A stretch of 64,000 nt of DNA, taken from contig NW_026570282.1 in the NCBI RefSeq assembly GCF_019649055.1, positions 434,001-498,000 of the forward strand, given 5' to 3'. Source of the stretch: Paramacrobiotus metropolitanus. Lineage: Eukaryota; Tardigrada; Eutardigrada; Parachela; Macrobiotidae. The notes beneath the pieces are model-generated. The model made no database searches. It was not told the origin of the DNA and saw only the letters and a program-made list of their open reading frames with translations. The translations under genes and the position numbers were made by a program. This document shows, piece after piece, positions 41,272 through 61,242 of the stretch (its first letter is position 1; each line of letters begins with the position of its first letter).

Positions 41272-42171
41272 TTATCCACCGTAAGCTCCACCTGATCCCA
41301 TGGTGGAGGTCACCGGTCCAACGCTGGATCCCATTGTTGATCCCATGGTCGATCCCATTGTGGATCCCATTGTTGACCCCATGGTCGATCCCATAGTCGA
41401 TCCCATCGTTGATCCCATGGTGGATCCCATTGTTGACCCCATGGTCGATCCCATGGTAGATCCCATCGTTGATCCCATTGTTGACCCCATTGTCGAACCC
41501 ATCGTTGAGCCCATTGTCGTGGCTACAGAGAAATCTAGTTGTACTGTAAACCATGGCTTACCGAAGACCATTATCTTCGCGTTTAATACACAGGGGTAAA
41601 CTAATGCCAGTGGTATAATTAATTCTTTTTTAGTTAATTTGCACAATATTTGCTACAGATTGTGACATTGTTAGGAACTTATGATGATTATGAAAGAGCG
41701 AAAGTCGAACCATCTGTATACAAAATATACAAACGAACCATCTGTATACAAAATATTGTTCCAGATAGAGCGAAAGATGATTATGATTACTTATGATGAT
41801 TATGAAAGAGCGAAAGTCGAACCATCTGTATACAAAATATACAAGTCGAACCATCTGTATACAAAATATTGTTCCAGATATGCCTTGGCGATCAGAAATA
41901 TGCTGACAACAGACACTACGGAGTAGGGTATACCCTACAGTCTGTACTCAACAAAACTTGCTGAATATAATTGCCGTTCGATTGAACAGCAATTTTATTT
42001 TGCAGGAGTGTCGATATCAATGGTTTTTTAACTATCAATAAGCACTCGTAGATTTTAGTTGCGGGTAATTTGGTACAAAGTTAATACGTTACCCATGCTG
42101 GATGAGTAGTTAACGGGTTGTCCGACAGCCACCGAACAAAGAACGGCTAAGGTCACCAGTTTTAAATCCAT
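41272..42171 (-). CDS. Small secreted protein of MGST tetrapeptide repeats
   Basis: Exon 1 (42171-42093) encodes a signal peptide, MDLKLVTLAVLCSVAVG, then QPVNYSSSM. A donor (ATGG|gtaacg) in phase 1 joins exon 2 (41522-41272), whose acceptor tttctctgtag gives ATT followed by 15 exact MGST units, one MGSS, and the tail VGPVTSTMGSGGAYGG before TAA. The total is 109 aa. Codons inside the repeat differ freely at third positions (GGN, TCN, ACN) while the amino acids do not change, which argues for selection on this frame. The mature chain has no Cys and no charged residue. I know no named family. A structural, mucin-like or cuticular role is possible but is only a guess. An unspliced reading from an upstream ATG at 41646 exists but lacks a signal peptide. 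Confidence 0.65.
41300..41520. repeat. 12-bp coding minisatellite, about 16 units
   Basis: On the plus strand the unit reads approximately GATCCCATNGTN with degenerate positions every third base. It corresponds exactly to the MGST codons of the minus-strand exon. Unit sequences are mixed and not blockwise identical, so the array is not a very recent expansion. Confidence 0.9.
41677..41880. repeat. 112-bp tandem duplication in intron
   Basis: The segment beginning acttatgatgattatgaaag at 41677 recurs at 41789. Each copy also contains an inner direct repeat of cgaaccatctgtatacaaa. The array sits inside the single intron of the MGST-repeat gene. Confidence 0.85.
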
Positions 42172-45100
42172 GTCAGAGAATTGGAGTTTATTTGCAGATA
42201 AAATATCTTAGCTGATGGGTTTGCTAAGCAGCCGAAAACGAAATAAATTAAAGCTGCACAACTGACTTGAAGATTAAAACCAACTACCGAGTTACAAAGC
42301 ATAGAGACGTACACGAAATGCAGGTTATTCAAGCGATTGCTGGAACGTTTAGGACAGCATGGCAGAGAAGCAGGCTGTTTCCGTGACTGAAATATTGATC
42401 TTTGTGAAATATGATATGTTCCACGCGTCATCCGAATGACCAGTAACCAGTTTGCTACGAACAGCGAGTGAGTTCGGCCTGGGGCATCGGAGATTTCCTT
42501 TGTTCGGCGATAGCCACGACGCACGATTCTATCACGCCGCTGACCATGGGTCAAACCTGGGCGATCAGAAATATGCTGACGATACATATATGCAGCGGCG
42601 CATGATAAAACTGAACATGAAATTGGAATAGGCATACTTCGAAGTACAGATATGGCAGATTTGTCTGACAGCGCTGTCCGCTTCGAGTAGCCACAGGCGT
42701 GTAGCTCTTTCACTCCGGCGCCGCTCTCCCGTTTCCGGCTTTTTGAGTGTCGAATACATTTAGTTTCAAAAAAATTATTGCAGGCTTCCTTCTATTTATT
42801 TCCAGAAGAATGCGAAAGCGAACAAATAATTAAACTGCTCACTCCCTTTGTAATTAAAAACCAAGTCGGTTAAGTTTATTATTGGTGCTTCCGCTTTGTG
42901 AGTATTTTAAGTTTCGATTTCGACCGAGTACAGAGTATTTTAATCGTTTTGTGTTCCGAAAATAAAGAAGGATTAAGTGAAAATACGACACGTATCATAT
43001 ATGCTACCTGATTTGGTGTAGAAAAATACGGATTTAATTAGGATCGACAATATTGTTTTATGGCCGGGATGTTAAGAATTGAGAGTGCTCCGGGCACCAC
43101 CTTTTACCACCATAGGCTCCCGACATTACTGTTTGCACCACTTTTTGTCTCTGGCCACCACTCATTATACAGTAATACAATACCGGTTGTCTCAGGACAT
43201 CACCTCATGTCGCATTAATTGTTCGTGCACATTCGTCCGTTTACCGTAACATACAAGACAGTTCAAAACCGGAGAAATGGAATTGATTGTGGTCTTTCTG
43301 AGATAGCATTTGCATGCGATTTGGTAAAAACGCATATGATCCCGGAAGAGGTCCCTTTTCCGGGAAAACGATAAGGGAATGGGCGATAGCTTCCTTTGAG
43401 GCGAAGCGAATTCAGAAGCTCAACCACCGCCCAGGTAAAGGAGCAGAACGAGTTCGGCCAAAGGACGTCGTCACGATTACAGAAATGGAAACACGAGAGT
43501 GGCACGTAAAAATGAGCTGAACCTCGACTAGGCAGTGCTGTGTTTTTCCCTTCTGTGATAACATGAAACTAAAGATTTTGCAAATAGTAGTGACCGGAGA
43601 CACCACTACTAGTGGTCTGTGCATTTCTCGTGGTGGTGTAACGAGATTTTGATGGTGTACCCTTTAAAATAAAAACTAATTATATAGGGGTGTCGGCAGC
43701 TTGGTGGTGGTGAAACATGGTATCGGGAGACTTTGGTGGTGCAAGATGGTGTCCGGAGCCTTCCCTTTAAAAATTTGTGAAATTACAAGGTAGAATAAAA
43801 TGGCCTTTATGAAAACTGTTTGGTATGAAACTGTCATGCCTTGTTTTTTCGGATCCGTCGGAATAGTTATATGCCACACCCACAGGCCCAACTGCGAAAC
43901 CAAGGTCGGCTGCAGTTATCCTGCAAAATCCTCTTCAGCGTATTCTCCGATAATAAACTTGAAGATGAGCACCTCCAAATTGAATTTTATTCTTTATAAA
44001 GAAAGCAATGCCATCGCGGGCGCAGATATCTATCCTGACTATTTTTGTCAATGGGAAAGCAGTTTACGAAGCCACAAGCAGCGCCACTGCAGAAACGACA
44101 GAAATTAAAAAAACTGCTTCAAAGCAATTAACTGAAATTACGTGGCCGAAATGCGTACTGTCCAAATATACTGAAGTATATATGCATAAAAAACAAACGA
44201 TATTATAATGGCATCACAAATTGGTTACGCTTCCTACAATCCACAGATGTTTTGTTCCTAAAATGCTAACGTGCTCGCATTTCTTTAAGACTTCGCACAA
44301 ATGGTTTTAAAGCTTTCATTTGGTTAATTTTTGCTACAGAATTAGTGCCATTAAACAATGCAAAAGTGTTTGAGAGTGCTGGAAATCGAGAATTACCGTG
44401 GATGTGCACGATTTTGGGATGATATGCATCGGGCCATTTTCCATATTAATAAATGTGACACGCACGGCTAACTGATTGTGTTGGTAGTCAGGAAGCACAA
44501 CTGGTTTACCTCGCGTCCGGGTACCGAGCGGTGAGCGCATAGCCAGTTTATGTCGTGTCCTAAATTTTGCGCTTAGCTTTCATAAAATTTAAGTTTTTAC
44601 CGTAATAACTTGATTAGTAAGTACGAGCTGTATATGCTTTTATCGGAAAATTGTCTAGATATTAACTAGTACTTTAGGGAATGCCGATGCTAGACTTCTG
44701 TGGACATTTTGATGGGAAAAGAACATTTCAAGAAAGGTATCCAGAAAGCGTATGCACTTGCAGGAACCACGACAAGCAAGTACCTTTTCTGCTTGCACCC
44801 CCAGTAAGCGGAAAGTGTAAGAAGTAACTAAAACTCGAAGCGAAGCAGTCCGTTCACACGAATTTTTCCTGCAGCGATTGTCGCTGGAGATTCAGCGGGG
44901 TAACGCAGCTTCACAATCGGTCATGGGCACCGTGGAAGGAGTGCAAATGGTTTAATGAACTGTTGTTAATGTAATGTTTCCTATTCTAAAGTTAAAACCC
45001 GTATGTGTGTTGGTTTGAAATAAGGTGAGAATTTAACTAAAACTGAATTTTCACCGCTGCACTATCAACTAATTGTTAGCTAAATATTTAGTATCTTGAC

Positions 45101-48349: not shown

Positions 48350-51172
48350 TCAGTTCGACTTTCTCTGCCGTAAATTGCTCTCTGGACCATAAACTGCTTG
48401 TCGCCGGTCCACGTCAATATAACAATAAGCTGCTAAGGCGCTGAGCATTATCATTGCCGCCAAGGCAAAAGCAAATCCCGACCACCAGGATACACTGGCC
48501 GAGAACACTGATGTGAAGATAAGGGTTCCTAAAAGCGGGAACACTGCCTGAAATGATGCAATGACCGACATCATCTTCCCACGCTCGTTCTCGTCGACCA
48601 AGTTAGTTAAGAGAGAACGAAGAGAAACAAATTGTAAGCTACTCAGGGCTCCTATCGCTGCATACGCAACAGCCATAAAAATTTTTGTCGTAGCGGAAAG
48701 GGCAATTAATGCGAATATCGCCGATGTAATCCCCACGATTCCCACGGTGGTATCAGCAAAGTGGAAGAATTGTTTCAGTAACGGCACCGTCGCCATCACC
48801 ACTAAACCTGATAGGAAATAACACACATAATGTAGATTGATGATTAAAGTAAGATAATCAAGCCAGATAAAAACATTACCAGTCACAATTCCTGTCATTG
48901 CCGAAAATATGGTATACTGCTTCGTACTCCAGTTTAACGGAGCCGTCTCGAAAAACAGTTGCTGTATAGCACCCGTTCCTAGAACGGAAGATGATGTACA
49001 CAGATGTCATTCAATTGTATTGTAGCTGAAAACATTATATTTTTGATATGCGTTTGACATACCAACAGCACAAATTAGTCCGATGACCGCGCTGAACAGC
49101 AAGAGCCATATATGCCGTTTTGTCCTGCCTATCCGTTCCTTAGTCAACATTTCATAGTTCTCTTTGACGTTTTTTGTGGTAAACAGGCGGGCAAAACTAT
49201 GCCGGTTGAATTCCCGCACCAACACCCGCCGATCACTGACAGCGATACCCATATACACAATGATCAGAGTTAACAGGCCAGAGTACAAAATCATCGGGTA
49301 CGGGAATCCGTACTGCCCGTACAGCACCCCGCCGACAATAGATCCAATGTTGGACGCCAAATTCAAGATACCATCGAATACAGCGATATCGATGGCCAAC
49401 GTGGCGGGACTGCTGTAGTCACCCAGGTAGCTGTAGATGGCGGCCGACGCAATGATCCATCCCCCCAAAGAGGCCGACACAAAAGGGAATACAAGAAGGA
49501 CAAGCGGATGTGTGGGCACATAGGCAAACACAATTAGCAGAATGCCACTTAGCACCATTCCACAAAATGGGATCTTAAACAAAAACGTGTTAGTGCATCG
49601 TATAGATTGTGTACACATGCAAAATTGGATCAACAATATATGGTAAGTGCAGGGACATATTCCGTGCATAAAGAAATCTAAATAAAGACGTGCTAATGCA
49701 TTATTACACATGGTGTTATGTATTTGCGTGCAAGGGCAATATTATTCTGTACTCCTATTTATTATACCATCATCGGGAGTTTCCGTCCGAAGTGGTCGCT
49801 CCATGAGCCTAAGAAGAGAATGAGAGTGAACGTAATGGGTCTGCACCAACGTTGTACCCAACTCAAGATCATTGCATTATGGAGCTTATTCACTTTGCAA
49901 TTTCAGTTGTTAGACATGTAAGTCCATATTGAGCGCCACTACATGCTGTCTATGTTATTGATCGACTTGGAAATAAGGTTTACATATTCATCCATGAATA
50001 CTGAGAGGTTATAAGTACAGTATACCCGTGTCGGCAGCATCCAAGTTTTCTACTTGGTTGCAACTCGCACGTGTTTTTTGTTCTGCCGGGATTCCCGGTC
50101 TGCATATCTCAAAAATCAAAACGACAGACCCACGCCGAGTGCAACTGACTCTGTGGGCAAATATGTACCATAAATTACAATTTTCAGCTGTAATTTCTAG
50201 AAAATGTAAACATTTCTATCGACAGTCATAATACGGCTTCAGATAGTTGTAAGGTCACCTGTAAACACCGCGAACAGGATGCTTGGCAAGCTAGCAGTCA
50301 AGCTGAGTAGAAAGGAGTAATGTGCTGCAGTGGACACAACCAAATCATTTTCTTTTCGGTGATGACCGTCATTTAAATTTTGACACGTGTCATTTTGGAA
50401 AGCATATTCCTTTTCGCAAACCTAACAACGACAATTCATATAGGTGCCGCTGTAGTTCAATAATAACCAAACCACACAGATTGTATAGTAATCTGCAGGC
50501 TACAGCAATGTATACAGCATTTATCAAAGCTACAGCATTTATTTAGGTACACATAAAATGGCGTTGCCGAATCTGTTGCAACAGTGTGCAGTTCACGTCC
50601 GACGGGGGCAGCTGTGTTTTGTATTTGTTTTTATCTGTAGGATTATGAATTCGTATGTCTTTACTGCAGTATATTCGGTAAAACATAGTTACCCGCAATT
50701 TGACTAATTCCGTTACGATTGGTCCAGCGATTCCCACCGCAAGTCCGAAGAAAAGTGCAACAGGTGCTAATTTCAACGAAGCATAACAAGGCGGAAGTCT
50801 GGTCACAGCAACCGCGGATGGCGCAGAGGTAAAAATACTTTCATCATCCACATCCGGATTGAGAGCTGATTGGGGACTGATTTGTGGAATCAGAGAGGAA
50901 CCTTCCGTTGAGTTATCATCGTCCGCTGCCGCCAGAGGAACGCTAACGGGCTCGACAATTATCTGTTCGGCACCTTCTATGGGGAACGGACGCGAAAACA
51001 CAGGTGCCACATCAGTCTGATCACCCGGATTGTACGGTGATAGTACTTCTGGATGATGCGTTACCGCGGCTGCGGATTCAGCTAGTCGTAAAGGCGAATC
51101 ACTTGGACCAGCTATTTCGTCGTTCAGATTAAAACTTGCCAGATCATTTCGCACTCGATCCACATTATCCAT
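48350..51172 (-). CDS. SLC46-family MFS transporter, paralogue A
   Basis: Six exons (51172-50693, 50421-50259, 49808-49768, 49573-49063, 48978-48880, 48807-48350) give 583 aa in phase. A hydrophilic N-terminus of about 135 residues precedes TM1 (APVALFFGLAVGIAGPI). Loop 1 carries two Cys (VCEKEY, DTCQNL) and an N-glycosylation candidate as in SLC46 proteins. The MFS motif A reads GSWSDHFGRKLP. The second half shows DENERGKMMSVIASFQA, and a CYIDVDRRQ tail ends the last helix. SLC46 members move folates or bacterial muropeptides with protons; which substrate applies here cannot be read from sequence. It is paralogous to the gene at 55955-60558 and has two more introns. Confidence 0.88.
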
Positions 51173-52249
51173 AACTGCTTTAGTATTTGGAATATCTTGG
51201 AAGATCCTCAGTTCATTTTGTACTTACAGATATCACTCATGTGAGTATTTAAGTGCGTGCATATTTGTCCTTGTTAAGTTAGTATTGTCGTCATTCAAAG
51301 ATTAAAAGGCTTTATTTACTAGTACCAAACTTAAACTAGCAAAGATGAAATTTGATGCAGATGCAAACAACTTCATGGATGCAAGCGCGAAGCGTAAGAA
51401 ATTCAGAATGTCTGCGCGTTACGCCGGGGGCTGTATCTGTTGAAACCTGTTTGGTCGGTTTTTCTTTCTGTCAAACACATGCATTTAATAATATCACGTA
51501 TTATATACAGCCATGTATTAAAAAATTAATCAAGCTTTAGCGTGCGCCGTGCAGTGTTAATTTTAAGTAAATAAGTTAAGCGCATGTGTTGCTGCAAACG
51601 TAGCTCCGACCATACGCTAGCACAAAAAACACTATGAATTAGCTCTTATGTTTACTTCACAGGAAGACAGGAAGAAATATAATATGTAATTTCCCTGCAA
51701 ATTTCCCTGCACAAATTTTCCTGAAATTTCCCATTCTTGATTACTCTCTACAGGCACGAGTATCGATTGCAGTATCGTGCATGCGTCGTAGCAAGTGTGA
51801 ATAATTTCATTGGCTGTTCACTTCTCACAATCAGCGTCATTATGAACAGTACTGCGTGCACTTCCTGCCGTTTGATTCCTTTCCCTTACCTTTTTGAGGC
51901 AATTTAGCTAGCTCGTATAACCATATGAATCCAACTATCAATCTTTCTTAAAAATACCAGCAACACAAATTCACTTAACTGCAGAAATGCCGACAAAAAC
52001 GGTTTTTTGGCTGATGATTTGATTGTTAATGCGTACATTTGCAATAGAAGTGTACCTGCAGTACATTAGGATTATGACCGATTGTCAAAATAGCGGTCTA
52101 AATTCGTGTTCTTGTTTCCATTAAAAAGAGTGCAGCAGGATTGAGGGCTATAATTTTTGGTGATTTTTACCACCAAGTGTATCATTACAAAAATGGGTGA
52201 CAGATATTATCTCATCTTAGAGAAAATGCCGAACATTTGTATAAAAGAG
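51173..52249. other. Intergenic, SLC46-A upstream and GPCR downstream
   Basis: 1.08 kb, AT-rich, no supported gene. A 62-codon plus ORF at 51352-51540 has no features. Confidence 0.4.
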
Positions 52250-55954: not shown

Positions 55955-58900
55955 TTACAACGAGTAAATTTCGTTTTGTCGATCCCAGTCAATGTAACAA
56001 AAGATGGCCAATGAGAGTACAAAAGCAAAGCTGCCCAACACGAAACAAAATCCGGGCCACCATGCCACGGTCAAAGCGAAGATGCTTCCGAAAAACAGGG
56101 ACTGGAAGAGTGGGGCAATAGCTTGGAGTGTAGCATAGGCGGACATCAGCTTTCCCAGTTCATCTCGAGCAACCATGGGCACCAGCATAGCCCTGGCTAG
56201 AACAACATGGAAGTTGCGTAGTATCCCGGTGGCTGCAGCCACGAGCAGCGTTGCTGTCGAGTTGGAGAAGGCATAACCATAGCTGCATAGTACAGCGGAA
56301 ATGCAACTTATTATTGCTATCCAAATGTCGGAAGCGGCCAGCACACGGAATAAGGGCACCAGCAGAGCCAGTGCGAGTCCCACAGCGACATTCTGAACCG
56401 ATATGAACTTAGTAAATGTTGCAACATCCCAGGAGAATGGAGATTTTTCTGTTATCAGCTGAAGCGCAGTCTGATCACCTGAAGAATTAACAGGAGAAAG
56501 ATTAGTCTGCTGTTGACACGGATTCCCATGAGCACAACAGTGCTGGATTAACACAGAAATTCTATAGAAGGGGCATATCTCTCTATAGACACAGGATCGA
56601 AGTCATTTGATACATATTTAATACATTAATCCATATTTGCAGTTAATGTAATCATACATGATCATGATCCCCGACAGAGACTTATAATATGTGAAATTAC
56701 TTGTGTATATAATGTACGCCATTAATATTACATACTATTGTTGTGGGTATACTTAATTGACTGGATTCTAAAGTGTAGTCAAATTTTTTAAGCATATTGT
56801 ACCTATGCATTGATAACAGCTGCCTGTTGTGCTCGAGTGCACCATACGTAGTGTTTGAACAAAAAGACTACTATATTCGTTTTGATTCTGTTAATATAAC
56901 ATTTCTCATTAACAAATACTTGGTGTGCTGTCAGTATTTTTTTATCCAGCGGGCAAATGTTTTATAGTAAGTATTGAACGCTTTTCGTACCTACTAGCGT
57001 TACTTACCCAAAAATATTAAGCCAAGTGCAGTGGATAACAACAGCAGATGGATATGCTTTCTCGTATTCCCCACCCTTTTCTTTCCTAGCACGGCCGCAT
57101 TATCCAGCAAATTCTTTGTGGTGAATACCGCGCAGCTGAATTGCTGGGACGTTCCAAATACACCACGTTCCTTTACAAACACCAGCACATAGCTCACAGC
57201 CAGGATAGGCAATGTCCCAAAGATGAACAACGGTATAGTAAATCCGTATTTCGACAGCAACTGACCACCGGCCAGTATGCCGGCCGTTTTCCCCACGAGC
57301 AGCGAGCCATCCACTAGAGCGACCGCCGTCGATCGATTCTCCGCAGTAGTATAGTCGGCTACGTAAGAAAACACCGCCATAAGGAGCACGACCCAACCTC
57401 CAAAAAGCGACATGGAAAACGGAGATAAGAGAAGGATGTAGGGATGCAGAGGATAATTAGCCGCCAGTGTGGTGACAAATGCTGACAGGATAAACCCCAA
57501 AAATGGCAATGCCATCGGAAGTTTCCGGCCAAAGTTGTCACTCCAAGAGCCTGAAGTTAAATGACAAGCAAATTCAGTTGTACGTACTGATCTTCCTCTC
57601 CATGTCTTAACTTAAACTTTAAATGTACAGAAATTATATAATATGGACTGTGGCGAATATGAAATTGTATCAACTTCACCACTTGATGTGCAGTATTTTG
57701 CGCCTACACTTTGTCCAGTTGGATAACTATTCAGTAACATTCGAGATACATAGTTTTATCGCTTGATACAATTATAGCCACTTGTTGTTAGATATTTTTG
57801 AAGCAGTAGGGAAATTACAAATCTTGTCGGTCAATCTCACCCATAAACAGCGTAATGAATAAACATGGAACACTCGACAGGAGGCCACTGATGGCAGTGA
57901 TTTTTGCGGTGGCTTCGGTGGTCTCCGCACCGATGTCCGAAGCATTGTTTCCGGTAAAGTTTGCCAGATCCAGACAGATAGTTCGTGTAAAATTAAAGTT
58001 GTACTCACATATCTGCAAATTATTTTTTTACCCTAAAGTGACACATGAATACGTACTACCCCACATGCCGGTTAATTATTTGTACTTCTATAGAAAAACG
58101 AACTCAATTGTTTTGCTTGCAGATAAATTACTTCATTCCTTTACCGATCGGTTAAAAAACTTGCTTTATCTCAACATGCATAATATGTAGAATTGCAGTT
58201 CTATGTAGAAAAATAGTTATTTCTATCCCTGACCACGGGTAAGAAAGATCTCCTTTACCCCATTGTACGTTCGAGTATCGTCATTTCGTGATCTTCAGTC
58301 TACCAAAAAAATATGAATAAAGTACAACGTAAGACTTTCTGGGGTACTTGCAAAGTAATTTATACGAGTAACTGACTGCGAATTTACGAGCACCATCTAA
58401 AAGCAAACCCATTGCAAAAACTGATTTCATTCAGTTCATGGGAGGCGAGACAATGACTGAGTTACTGCGCTATATCAATATCAATAGATTCATATATCCT
58501 TACGTCCTTATTTTTTGGAAATGATCTCCTAAATCAAGATTGATTTTTCAATAAGTTGATAATTTTATAAAATTGAGCATCGTGCAAACGTTCCTACCTT
58601 CATCTTTAAAAAAATTTTAAGTTTTGGAGAAAGGTCTAAAAAAGTTTTTAGAAGCTGCAGTACTTAAAGGTTGTTAGTACTTAAAGGTTGTTAGTTTTGG
58701 AAATTATCTCCTAATTCGAGGTTCCATTTGTGAAGCTTTTGATTGTTTTATAAAATCCAGCATCTTCTAAAGCTTCCTACCTGCAGCTTGGAAAAAATTT
58801 TGGTTTCCGGAACGTTTTCAAAAACCCTTTCAAACATTCAGTACTTAGCGTTTAAAGTTCATAGAAATTTCCAGTAAACTCTATAAAAGTCTCGAATGAG

Positions 58901-60558
58901 CAAATACAAGTTTCGCAACTTAGCAGCCTAAACTATAGTTATTTAAAATTGTCAATCCCATCAAACTTATAATTTTTTTTTTAATTCTTGAAACCTTTAA
59001 GATGTTTTTAAATCTGTTTGAATACCTCTAAATAACTATAAATGTTTCGAAAGTCGGCTCCAAAGCTTTTACATTTCCAGAATTTCTAAATATTTCGACT
59101 CGGCCCCGCGCAGCGGGGCCGTTACCTCTATGTTTTTGAGCCTCCAAAGTTTCGAAATTTAAAAAAATCTATTATCTAGAAATTTGAGTACCTCAATATC
59201 TCACGGTCTAAATTGTCTAATTTATATGTAATTTCTAAATATCTAAAAGCCAGCCCGCGGCCCGTTTACCGTATTCACTCACATAGCGGCTCTGTGGTAC
59301 TGGTGGTAGCGTGGGTATTCACTAACCCCAAAATCTAATAAATATGTATTTATTTTATTTTTATAAATACTCAAGAGCTTGACTGAATGGCCAAAAATCT
59401 TACAGTTAGTAGCTAAAGATGCAGCCTGCCAGGTCACCTTGGGCAACCGTTAATTGTTTCTCACAAGTTTCCATTAATTCTGCGCTAAAACATCGGCTGA
59501 ATGGTTTTTGCGAGCATCGTGTAAATGATCCCACTTCATTCATTTAATCACCGTTTAAATATTATCGGTCGTACAAAAAAATTCAAGTTTTCAGTTCGTT
59601 AGATCGGCAATATAAAGTTACGTTAAAAACGTAAAAAAGAACCGTGAAAAATGCAAACAAAACAAAAAATTGCGGAGACTTTCACAGTTTTTATAACACT
59701 AGTCGAATTTAACCGGAAAGCTTGAAAACTGTCCTCATTTCTACATGTTAAAATATTTTCGTAGCTGGCCTCGCTGGGGTTTCATATATAAAATATTTTT
59801 ATTGCTGTACGAAGTATATTCTGCATTTTTTTCATTACTCCATACCTCGAACACAACTGGTCGCGCGCTAGCGCGACCGATACTTGTACGTTAATAACGT
59901 TACTGCAGTACGTGCATTACTGTATTTTTTCAAATAAACAGTAGAGGTACTGCAATGCATATTTTTTAATTCTCCCAAATTTAGCTGTACCTATTTAAGA
60001 TTGTTTTTTAAAACCTTTACAAGCTCTCTAAAGTTTGTTAAAAGATTTTACAGTTATGTAGTACAATCCTCACTTGAAATTCAGCTGTTCTGGAATTTTG
60101 AATTACTGTACGAGTACGCTACTAATGAAATATAAATAATCCGGTAAGAAACTTAAGTTTTGTACGCAGAGCTTTGTGTACTAATAACTATTACAAAAAC
60201 TTCTGAATTTGAAACAGAAGAATTAACCACTCACTCGGCTTTTGAAAAGTTCAACAATCAGTGGTTCGTAGATGCCGAGAGCCAACCCTAACATGGCTAC
60301 AATCGGCACCATGAGCAGTGTAGCTGACAATGGACCTGGAGAATCGGCGGCAATTTCTGGTTCCATTTCTGGTATGGTCCCGTAGTGGTTAGAGGAGTCG
60401 CGCCGCTTCACTTTCTGTGGCAATAAAAAGTCCTTTTCCGGCTCGATCACCTCTGGGTAGACTGACCCCAGAGCCAGGTTTCGTTGTTTTTTGGACTTCA
60501 TGGGTTTATCTTTAGGCTTCGACACCGCGATCAAAGTATCGGTTTCCGAATCATCCAT
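55955..60558 (-). CDS. SLC46-family MFS transporter, paralogue B
   Basis: Four exons (60558-60235, 58012-57841, 57550-57008, 56478-55955) give 520 aa in phase. The N-terminal cytosolic part is Lys-rich and TM1 is LLMVPIVAMLGLALGIYEP. The extracellular loop 1 has paired Cys (ICEYNF, TICLDL) and N-glycosylation sites (NFTGNNAS). Motif A reads GSWSDNFGRKLPM. The C-terminal half has ARDELGKLMSAYATLQA and ends in CYIDWDRQNEIYSL. It aligns along its whole length with paralogue A. Exon 3 here corresponds to exons 3 and 4 of A, and exon 4 to exons 5 and 6, so intron loss or gain followed duplication. Intron 1 is 2.2 kb and repeat-rich. Substrate unknown. Confidence 0.9.
58513..58811. repeat. Diverged tandem repeat, period about 182 bp
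   Basis: Within intron 1 of SLC46-B, ttttggaaatgatctcct at 58513 recurs as ttttggaaattatctcct at 58695. The unit ends ttcctacct... plus an A-run at about 58590 and about 58774 also match. A 17-bp exact duplicate (tacttaaaggttgttag, 58661-58694) sits at the junction. Confidence 0.6.
59101..59121. repeat. GC-rich 9-bp stem hairpin in AT-rich intron
   Basis: CGGCCCCGC, loop GCA, GCGGGGCCG: a perfect stem in otherwise AT-rich intron sequence. A similar hairpin lies 740 bp further on, so a dispersed hairpin element is possible. Confidence 0.7.
59859..59878. repeat. GC-rich 8-bp stem hairpin
   Basis: GGTCGCGC, loop GCTA, GCGCGACC. Same intron as the hairpin at 59101-59121; unrelated in sequence but similar in form. 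Confidence 0.65.
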
Positions 60559-61242
60559 TTTATAAAATAAGAGTTTTAAAAAGTCAAACAATTTGATAAG
60601 CTGAATCTCTAAATCTGGTGAGTTTCGTTAGTGAATAGTTCGAAGTAAAGGAGAACGTATCCAAACTTTGAACGCGTGCGCTTTGCGCACGGTTATCGCT
60701 CCCGGTAAACACTGCCAGATACCAGTTTCCCAACAACTCTGATAAGAAATGCAACTTATCATCTAATGAATCCAATCAGAACTGGTATCCTTATCGGCAG
60801 CAGGCTAAAACAAACTGAAGAAGACGATCAAAACAAGTCTGAAGATCACTTAAATTAGTTTTGTTCTGGCGGGTCAAATGATTTTCTCGTACGACAAGTT
60901 TGCCGGCCATTTTGGTTGTGCCGGAAACCAACAATGTGTAAGGGCAAACAAATTAAGCGATTTACATCTAGTTATTACAGATTTGGGGCAAAAGTTTTTG
61001 TGCAATTCGTTTTAATTAGCGCCAATAAATACGCTTATTATGCATGCGCTGTTTTGCCAACGGTGAGGTTGCTAATGACCCGATAAAGTACAGTACAATT
61101 TTAATAGTTGTAACCGTTTAAGTATTCCATTCGTGCAGATATATATCTTGAAACTGTTCATGGAAATTAACTCCGAAGGCTAGATTTTGGTTTTAACAAT
61201 ACGCCCAGTATATTGTGGAGATTGCCCGCCTAGGGTTGAGTA
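60559..61242. other. Intergenic, SLC46-B upstream and LRR gene downstream
   Basis: About 680 bp, no supported gene; presumably the SLC46-B promoter and the LRR gene 3' UTR. Confidence 0.4.

Follow-up and report, generated by a model that had tools for sequence, protein, structure and literature searches.

The question raised by this locus of Paramacrobiotus metropolitanus is whether a tandem array of 12-bp units belongs to a gene and, if so, what kind of product it could give and what that product might do. The genes of the DMRT family make the assignment to this species, a eutardigrade of the Macrobiotidae, very probable: five are described for it, including two paralogues on scaffold 5 in a region drawn at 1.96-2.37 Mb (PMC11191345), and the DM domain matched 5 places in the genome searched here, two of which lie on C5 at 2.135 and 2.163 Mb. 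A lipocalin search returned a fatty-acid-binding protein, uninformative as to phylum. The window analysed (the whole stretch of 64,000 nucleotides) contains on its minus strand 15 exact copies of the tetrapeptide MGST, lying in a candidate two-exon gene for a preprotein of 109 aa (42171..41272). The elements of this gene model and the frame open opposite to it are the following:

42093..42171, minus strand: candidate exon 1, 79 nt, starting with ATG and ending in phase 1; its product is a signal-peptide-like N-terminus, MDLKLVTLAVLCSVAVG, followed by QPVNYSSSM as the predicted start of the mature chain.

41523..42092, minus strand: putative intron of 570 nt, GTAACG...TCTCTGTAG, with GT...AG borders and a pyrimidine-rich acceptor, TAGATTTCTCTGTAG.

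41272..41522, minus strand: candidate exon 2, 251 nt, completing the split Ala codon and ending with TAA at 41272; its product is TT(MGST)x15 MGSS VGPVTSTMGSGGAYGG, then the stop.

41335..41514, minus strand: 180 bases encoding the 15 exact MGST copies, starting at 41514 and followed by a 16th unit, MGSS.

41285..41599, plus strand: antisense open frame (VDP[MI])n, 104 aa.

Base changes within the array argued strongly for a coding sequence on the minus strand that is kept exact as protein. Tandem Repeats Finder delimited the array at 41327-41517, with periods of 12 and 36. The 15 units displayed 10 distinct DNA sequences and a single peptide; 9 of the 12 columns were invariant, and the three variable ones, each presenting all four bases, were the wobble positions of GGN, TCN and ACN. 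Base differences from the modal unit numbered 22. They were all synonymous in this frame and in this frame only, the corresponding shares being 0/22 for the second and third minus frames and the first plus frame, 11/21 for the second plus frame and 0/21 for the third. The claim of an earlier note on this DNA, that the units differ solely at synonymous third positions and the peptide stays exact, was thus borne out. When single-base variant types were compared with the modal unit, all nine synonymous types were seen and none of the 27 non-synonymous ones (hypergeometric P = 1e-8, a value that overstates independence because units arise through duplication). With the 16th unit included, codon departures amounted to 23 synonymous and 1 non-synonymous.

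These counts bear on two readings in which the minus-strand frame would have no meaning. A 12-bp minisatellite outside any gene, with its open frames due to chance, would agree with an array that is open on both strands, but it is very unlikely given that complete synonymy (22/22) was confined to one frame, that a signal-peptide-like exon can be joined to the array in phase, and that the two-unit DNA pattern occurred in the genome (169,799,020 bases in 533 contigs) at 14 overlapping places, all inside this array. It is more improbable still, to the point of being hardly credible, that the plus strand is the one translated, giving (VDP[MI])n. The 104-aa frame at 41285..41599 is indeed open and 4 of its 8 variant types were synonymous (P = 0.03); however, 10 of 21 departures altered D/E or I/M, in agreement with the earlier prediction that residues would change on this strand, and the free third base of CCN was constant across all 15 units. 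We judged this frame a by-product of the minus-strand gene.

The gene model as a whole, and splicing at 42092/41523 in particular, appear plausible from the sequence. Joining exon 1 to exon 2 through these GT/AG sites keeps the frame and places the stop after GGAYGG, the spliced product reading MDLKLVTLAVLCSVAVG-QPVNYSSSMATT-(MGST)15-MGSSVGPVTSTMGSGGAYGG, where the hyphen after VG marks the predicted cleavage site. The proposal that a signal-peptide exon joins the repeat exon in phase therefore stood as regards the frame and the product of 109 aa, although other junctions would serve too: with 7 GT sites, counted from base 31 onward in the first frame, and 8 AG sites ahead of the array, 22 of the 56 pairings keep the frame, so that an in-phase join alone is weak evidence. 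The donor at 42092 scored a mediocre 5/9, a value shared with two other GT sites, and the acceptor before 41522 presented 8 pyrimidines out of 11, the highest number among the 8 AG sites that precede the array within its open frame. Exon 1 was judged signal-peptide-like by a simple rule and not by SignalP; its core, VTLAVLCSVAV, has a mean Kyte-Doolittle value of 2.64, with Lys at position 4, and its frame is one of 3 that obeyed the rule among 727 open ATG-led frames of 26 residues in the window. The first AATAAA lies 379 nt beyond the stop, and a polyadenylation site for this gene is not obvious.

The array could also be coding and yet non-secreted, its exon being unspliced or joined elsewhere and translated without a signal peptide from an ATG such as that of MVFGKPW... 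On the minus strand the open frame through the array covers 126 aa in all and holds this ATG (MVFGKPWFTVQLDFSVATTMGST, MVFGKPW...) upstream in the exon 2 frame, just before the array, which makes an unspliced product possible; some alternative splice pairings keep the frame too. We consider such a product rather improbable, in view of the good pyrimidine tract of the acceptor before 41522 and of the signal-peptide-like ATG frame (3/727) that ends 570 nt upstream of it.

The spliced model predicts a mature chain of 92 aa and 8.7 kDa, composed of S (24%), G (24%), T (21%) and M (20%) for the most part, in which K, R, D, E, H and C are all absent (GRAVY -0.02). It had been described beforehand as neutral, Cys-free and made of Met, Gly, Ser and Thr only. 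The first of these features was confirmed for the mature sequence and the second is valid after the signal peptide, which itself holds one Cys, whereas the third applies to the array but not to the mature chain, where Q, P, V, N, Y and A also appear. An NYS N-glycosylation sequon lies close to the N-terminus, and a single Tyr is found near either end (QPVNY..., ...GGAYGG).

Methionine accounts for 18 of the 92 residues (19.6%) and occupies every fourth position in the array. Residues so regularly placed might scavenge oxidants or bind Cu(I) extracellularly, which would be useful when the animal dries, and the methionine-rich domain of yeast ataxin-2 is reportedly redox-controlled. Against such a role, MxxxM is not the classical Cu(I) Mets motif, the chain is without His, Cys or charge, and none of the neighbouring ORFs scanned with Pfam suggested metal handling; we regard it as quite unlikely. 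Neither does the composition favour a protectant in anhydrobiosis, that is, a disordered extracellular chain which would vitrify or hold water beside the secreted SAHS proteins. The host is a tardigrade with anhydrobiosis genes and the chain is small, of low complexity and probably secreted, but its hydropathy close to zero and its lack of charges set it apart from CAHS and LEA proteins, and this role seems improbable.

As to structure, exon 2 modelled alone with AlphaFold2, without relatives, gave a single helix at residues 2-63 (pTM 0.38), with block values of pLDDT 79-88 across its first 60 residues and means of 60-75 among the five models. Helices modelled in repeats are often artefacts, and this one carries little weight against a disordered chain. 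Foldseek found no match to the model in the PDB at E ≤ 10. The helix would nevertheless fit a glycine zipper in which the GxxxG of each repeat and a stripe of Met pack on themselves or on a membrane, giving fibres or bundles. Sequence comparisons pointed the same way: Pfam Gly-zipper_Omp (PF13488) matched exon 2 with 23.1 bits, under the cut-off of 25, and a PDB search returned SlyB, which we take to be a glycine-zipper lipoprotein, at E 0.13. Both matches are sub-significant, however, and the GxxxG spacing that the chain shares with these proteins could explain them by itself; the model comes from a single sequence, and Gly, Ser and Thr do not readily form helices. Moreover, glycine zippers combine GxxxG with a hydrophobic transmembrane helix, and the highest hydropathy over 11 residues in the mature chain was 0.41. 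A glycine-zipper helix is thus unlikely. The composition is not that of mucin-like PTS domains either, which are rich in Ser and Thr and contain Pro (here Ser plus Thr 44.6%, Pro 2.2%).

Relatives were sought for both exons. Exon 1 matched only itself in the genome at E ≤ 10; no second copy of the gene was found there, which does not prove its absence. Two Pfam families matched exon 2, both below the curated cut-off, and the exon 1 frame gave nothing in Pfam at E ≤ 0.01. Among PDB sequences exon 2 gave nothing at E ≤ 0.001 and two weak rows, the best of which (P230, E 0.0064) was taken as low-complexity noise. One Acidobacteriaceae metagenome-assembled locus (L023) passed tblastn among at least 590 bacterial stretches fitting a pattern, and was dismissed by reading its bases, which form a 12-bp DNA repeat of short extent, close to a contig edge and interspersed with other residues. 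In viral contigs, 12 stretches fitted a pattern and none was a relative. Neither Rfam families at gathering scores nor tRNAs were detected in the window. The repeat strings were absent from the papers searched, and among the papers listed on tardigrade eggshell, cuticle, tandem-repeat, low-complexity and methionine-rich proteins none dealt, judging by title and abstract opening, with this protein.

The statement that the protein fits no family consequently holds for Pfam (both exons) and for PDB sequences (exon 2), but its style and exactness recur within the genome. One ORF of C16 (L004, 1147-2556) begins with a hydrophobic segment and carries a TMGP stalk together with PATPPGTP repeats; the ORF that comes after it matches Pfam Sulfatase (50.9 bits vs. 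a cut-off of 25). As in the MGST array, the TMGP motif is a period-4 Thr-Met-Gly-x, and PATPPGTP is exact with synonymous-only departures: 8 of 8 copies were identical as peptide and came from 8 distinct DNA sequences, with 31/31 base departures synonymous and a mean pairwise DNA identity of 0.77, vs. 0.84 for the MGST units. Unlike MGST, these arrays are Pro-rich and apparently form the stalk of an enzyme, and the likeness may be one of composition alone. C23 (L020, 1438-2587) contains a Gly/Ser/Tyr-rich ORF with TMAP repeats, then SPTPSQPTPGGYG repeats, and GGYG motifs that recall the GGAYGG tail of the MGST protein; the region probably holds exons from a large protein with Gly/Ser/Tyr/Pro repeats, of silk- or eggshell-like style. 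Its TMxP tetrapeptides resemble the MGST unit, whereas the protein is longer, contains much Pro and has an array of variable sequence. In C162 (L018, 1090-1857) a hydrophobic stretch is followed in one ORF by Gln-rich GPQQGQNQ repeats, giving a further low-complexity protein that looks secreted. No Pfam match over the cut-off was obtained for the C16 stalk ORF, the C23 ORF or the C162 ORF.

Codon departures from the modal unit of each array were counted as a control. In C16, the octapeptide array treated as 16 tetrapeptides presented 31 synonymous and 8 non-synonymous departures, the true unit being the octapeptide; six PTMG units gave 7 and 0 (in the TMGP register, where a flanking Thr is included, 7 and 1) and five PTMG units 6 and 1 (5 and 2 in the TMGP register). 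The eight units of C23, whose ORF has a sub-threshold match to the Pfam PT repeat, displayed 11 synonymous and 2 non-synonymous departures. In C219 (L021, 393-1376, minus strand), a 327-aa frame of GTT[KNM] units faced by long open frames on the opposite strand, non-synonymous departures (34) exceeded synonymous ones (16) along its longest run of 39 units. Weak matches to the MGST repeat were also found in C3 (PT-rich arrays, whose pattern gave no run in this count), in C1 and C80 (short period-4 stretches) and in C458 (7 stops).

The ORFs of C16 and C23 indicated that low-complexity tracts occur in probable extracellular proteins of this genome. Since PATPPGTP is equally exact and its DNA more diverged, an exact repeat that diverges at wobble positions alone is nothing peculiar to MGST in this genome; such divergence supports coding, rather than a uniquely strict constraint on this peptide. 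For the same reason, MGST does not stand out as the longest exact array of those compared, the PATPPGTP octapeptide being as exact (8/8), and the qualification of the secreted chain as unusual has to be weakened in view of the TMGP, TMAP and GTTX arrays. The protein looks like one of a kind already known, that of lineage-specific low-complexity matrix proteins, built on a repeat for which no relative was found in the sequences searched.

The closest parallel in style comes from the pharyngeal cuticle of Caenorhabditis elegans. The proteins that make up this cuticle are secreted, of low complexity and depleted in charged and hydrophobic residues, and those rich in Cys, Pro or Gln peak during its construction (PMC9629831). 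Six of the families have no obvious homologues outside Nematoda (PMC9629831). IDPA, IDPB, IDPC, APPG, NSPB and FIPR resemble the predicted MGST protein in being secreted, low-complexity, lineage-restricted and domain-free and in coming from a secretome biased against charge; unlike it, they form families of several members (PMC9629831), whereas no second copy of MGST was found and its unit is a Met/Gly/Ser/Thr tetrapeptide. With a signal peptide (by the simple rule and the putative splice) and a charge-poor low-complexity chain, the tardigrade product would share a style with these nematode proteins, not membership of a family.

Secretion, splicing, expression, tissue and function of the MGST protein are all inferred here from sequence. 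The reading that we favour, with a probability of roughly 0.4 and low to moderate confidence in the assignment of function, is that of an uncharged low-complexity filler or spacer of extracellular material, such as the cuticle, the egg envelope or a secretion of mucous or adhesive type. The two-exon gene would give the 109-aa preprotein. Once its signal peptide, about 17 residues long, had been cleaved, the 92-residue chain would be secreted as a low-complexity polymer that carries no charge and is extended or disordered. In the material that it fills or spaces, it might be anchored through N-glycosylation at NYS and O-glycosylation at Ser/Thr, and cross-linked by peroxidases joining the terminal Tyr residues. 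If expressed, it would be a very simple natural polymer, secreted, without charge or Cys, with its peptide kept exact over time; (MGST)n would be simple to synthesise and test as a material. The protein would also extend the set of secreted low-complexity proteins of tardigrades, a group on which little literature was found. A bolder reading takes the strict four-residue lattice as required, because the repeat is exact while all its wobble positions are saturated. The protein would then be a new charge-free, self-assembling former of extracellular fibres or hydrogels in tardigrades, by means of a Met/Gly/Ser/Thr helix or sheet, possibly linked to the egg envelope or to survival of drying; we give this only a slim chance.

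The putative intron contains a local duplication at 41677-41880, with copies 112 bases apart, one 56-base block identical in both and sub-repeats of 28-29 bases. A transposon origin was considered for 41800-41917 (118 bases) and rejected, as this segment matched only itself and the neighbouring copy in the genome and looks like a local duplication; the search skips very common words, so that the exclusion falls short of proof. A direct repeat of 25 bases, 96% identical, links 41883-41907 in the intron with 42556-42580 upstream of exon 1. Farther along the window, 48350-49741, 50543-51223, 55955-57611 and 60223-60627 look by eye like minus-strand exons of at least two related membrane transporters arranged in tandem; 48350-49006, the single segment compared with Pfam, matched MFS_1 just above the cut-off.
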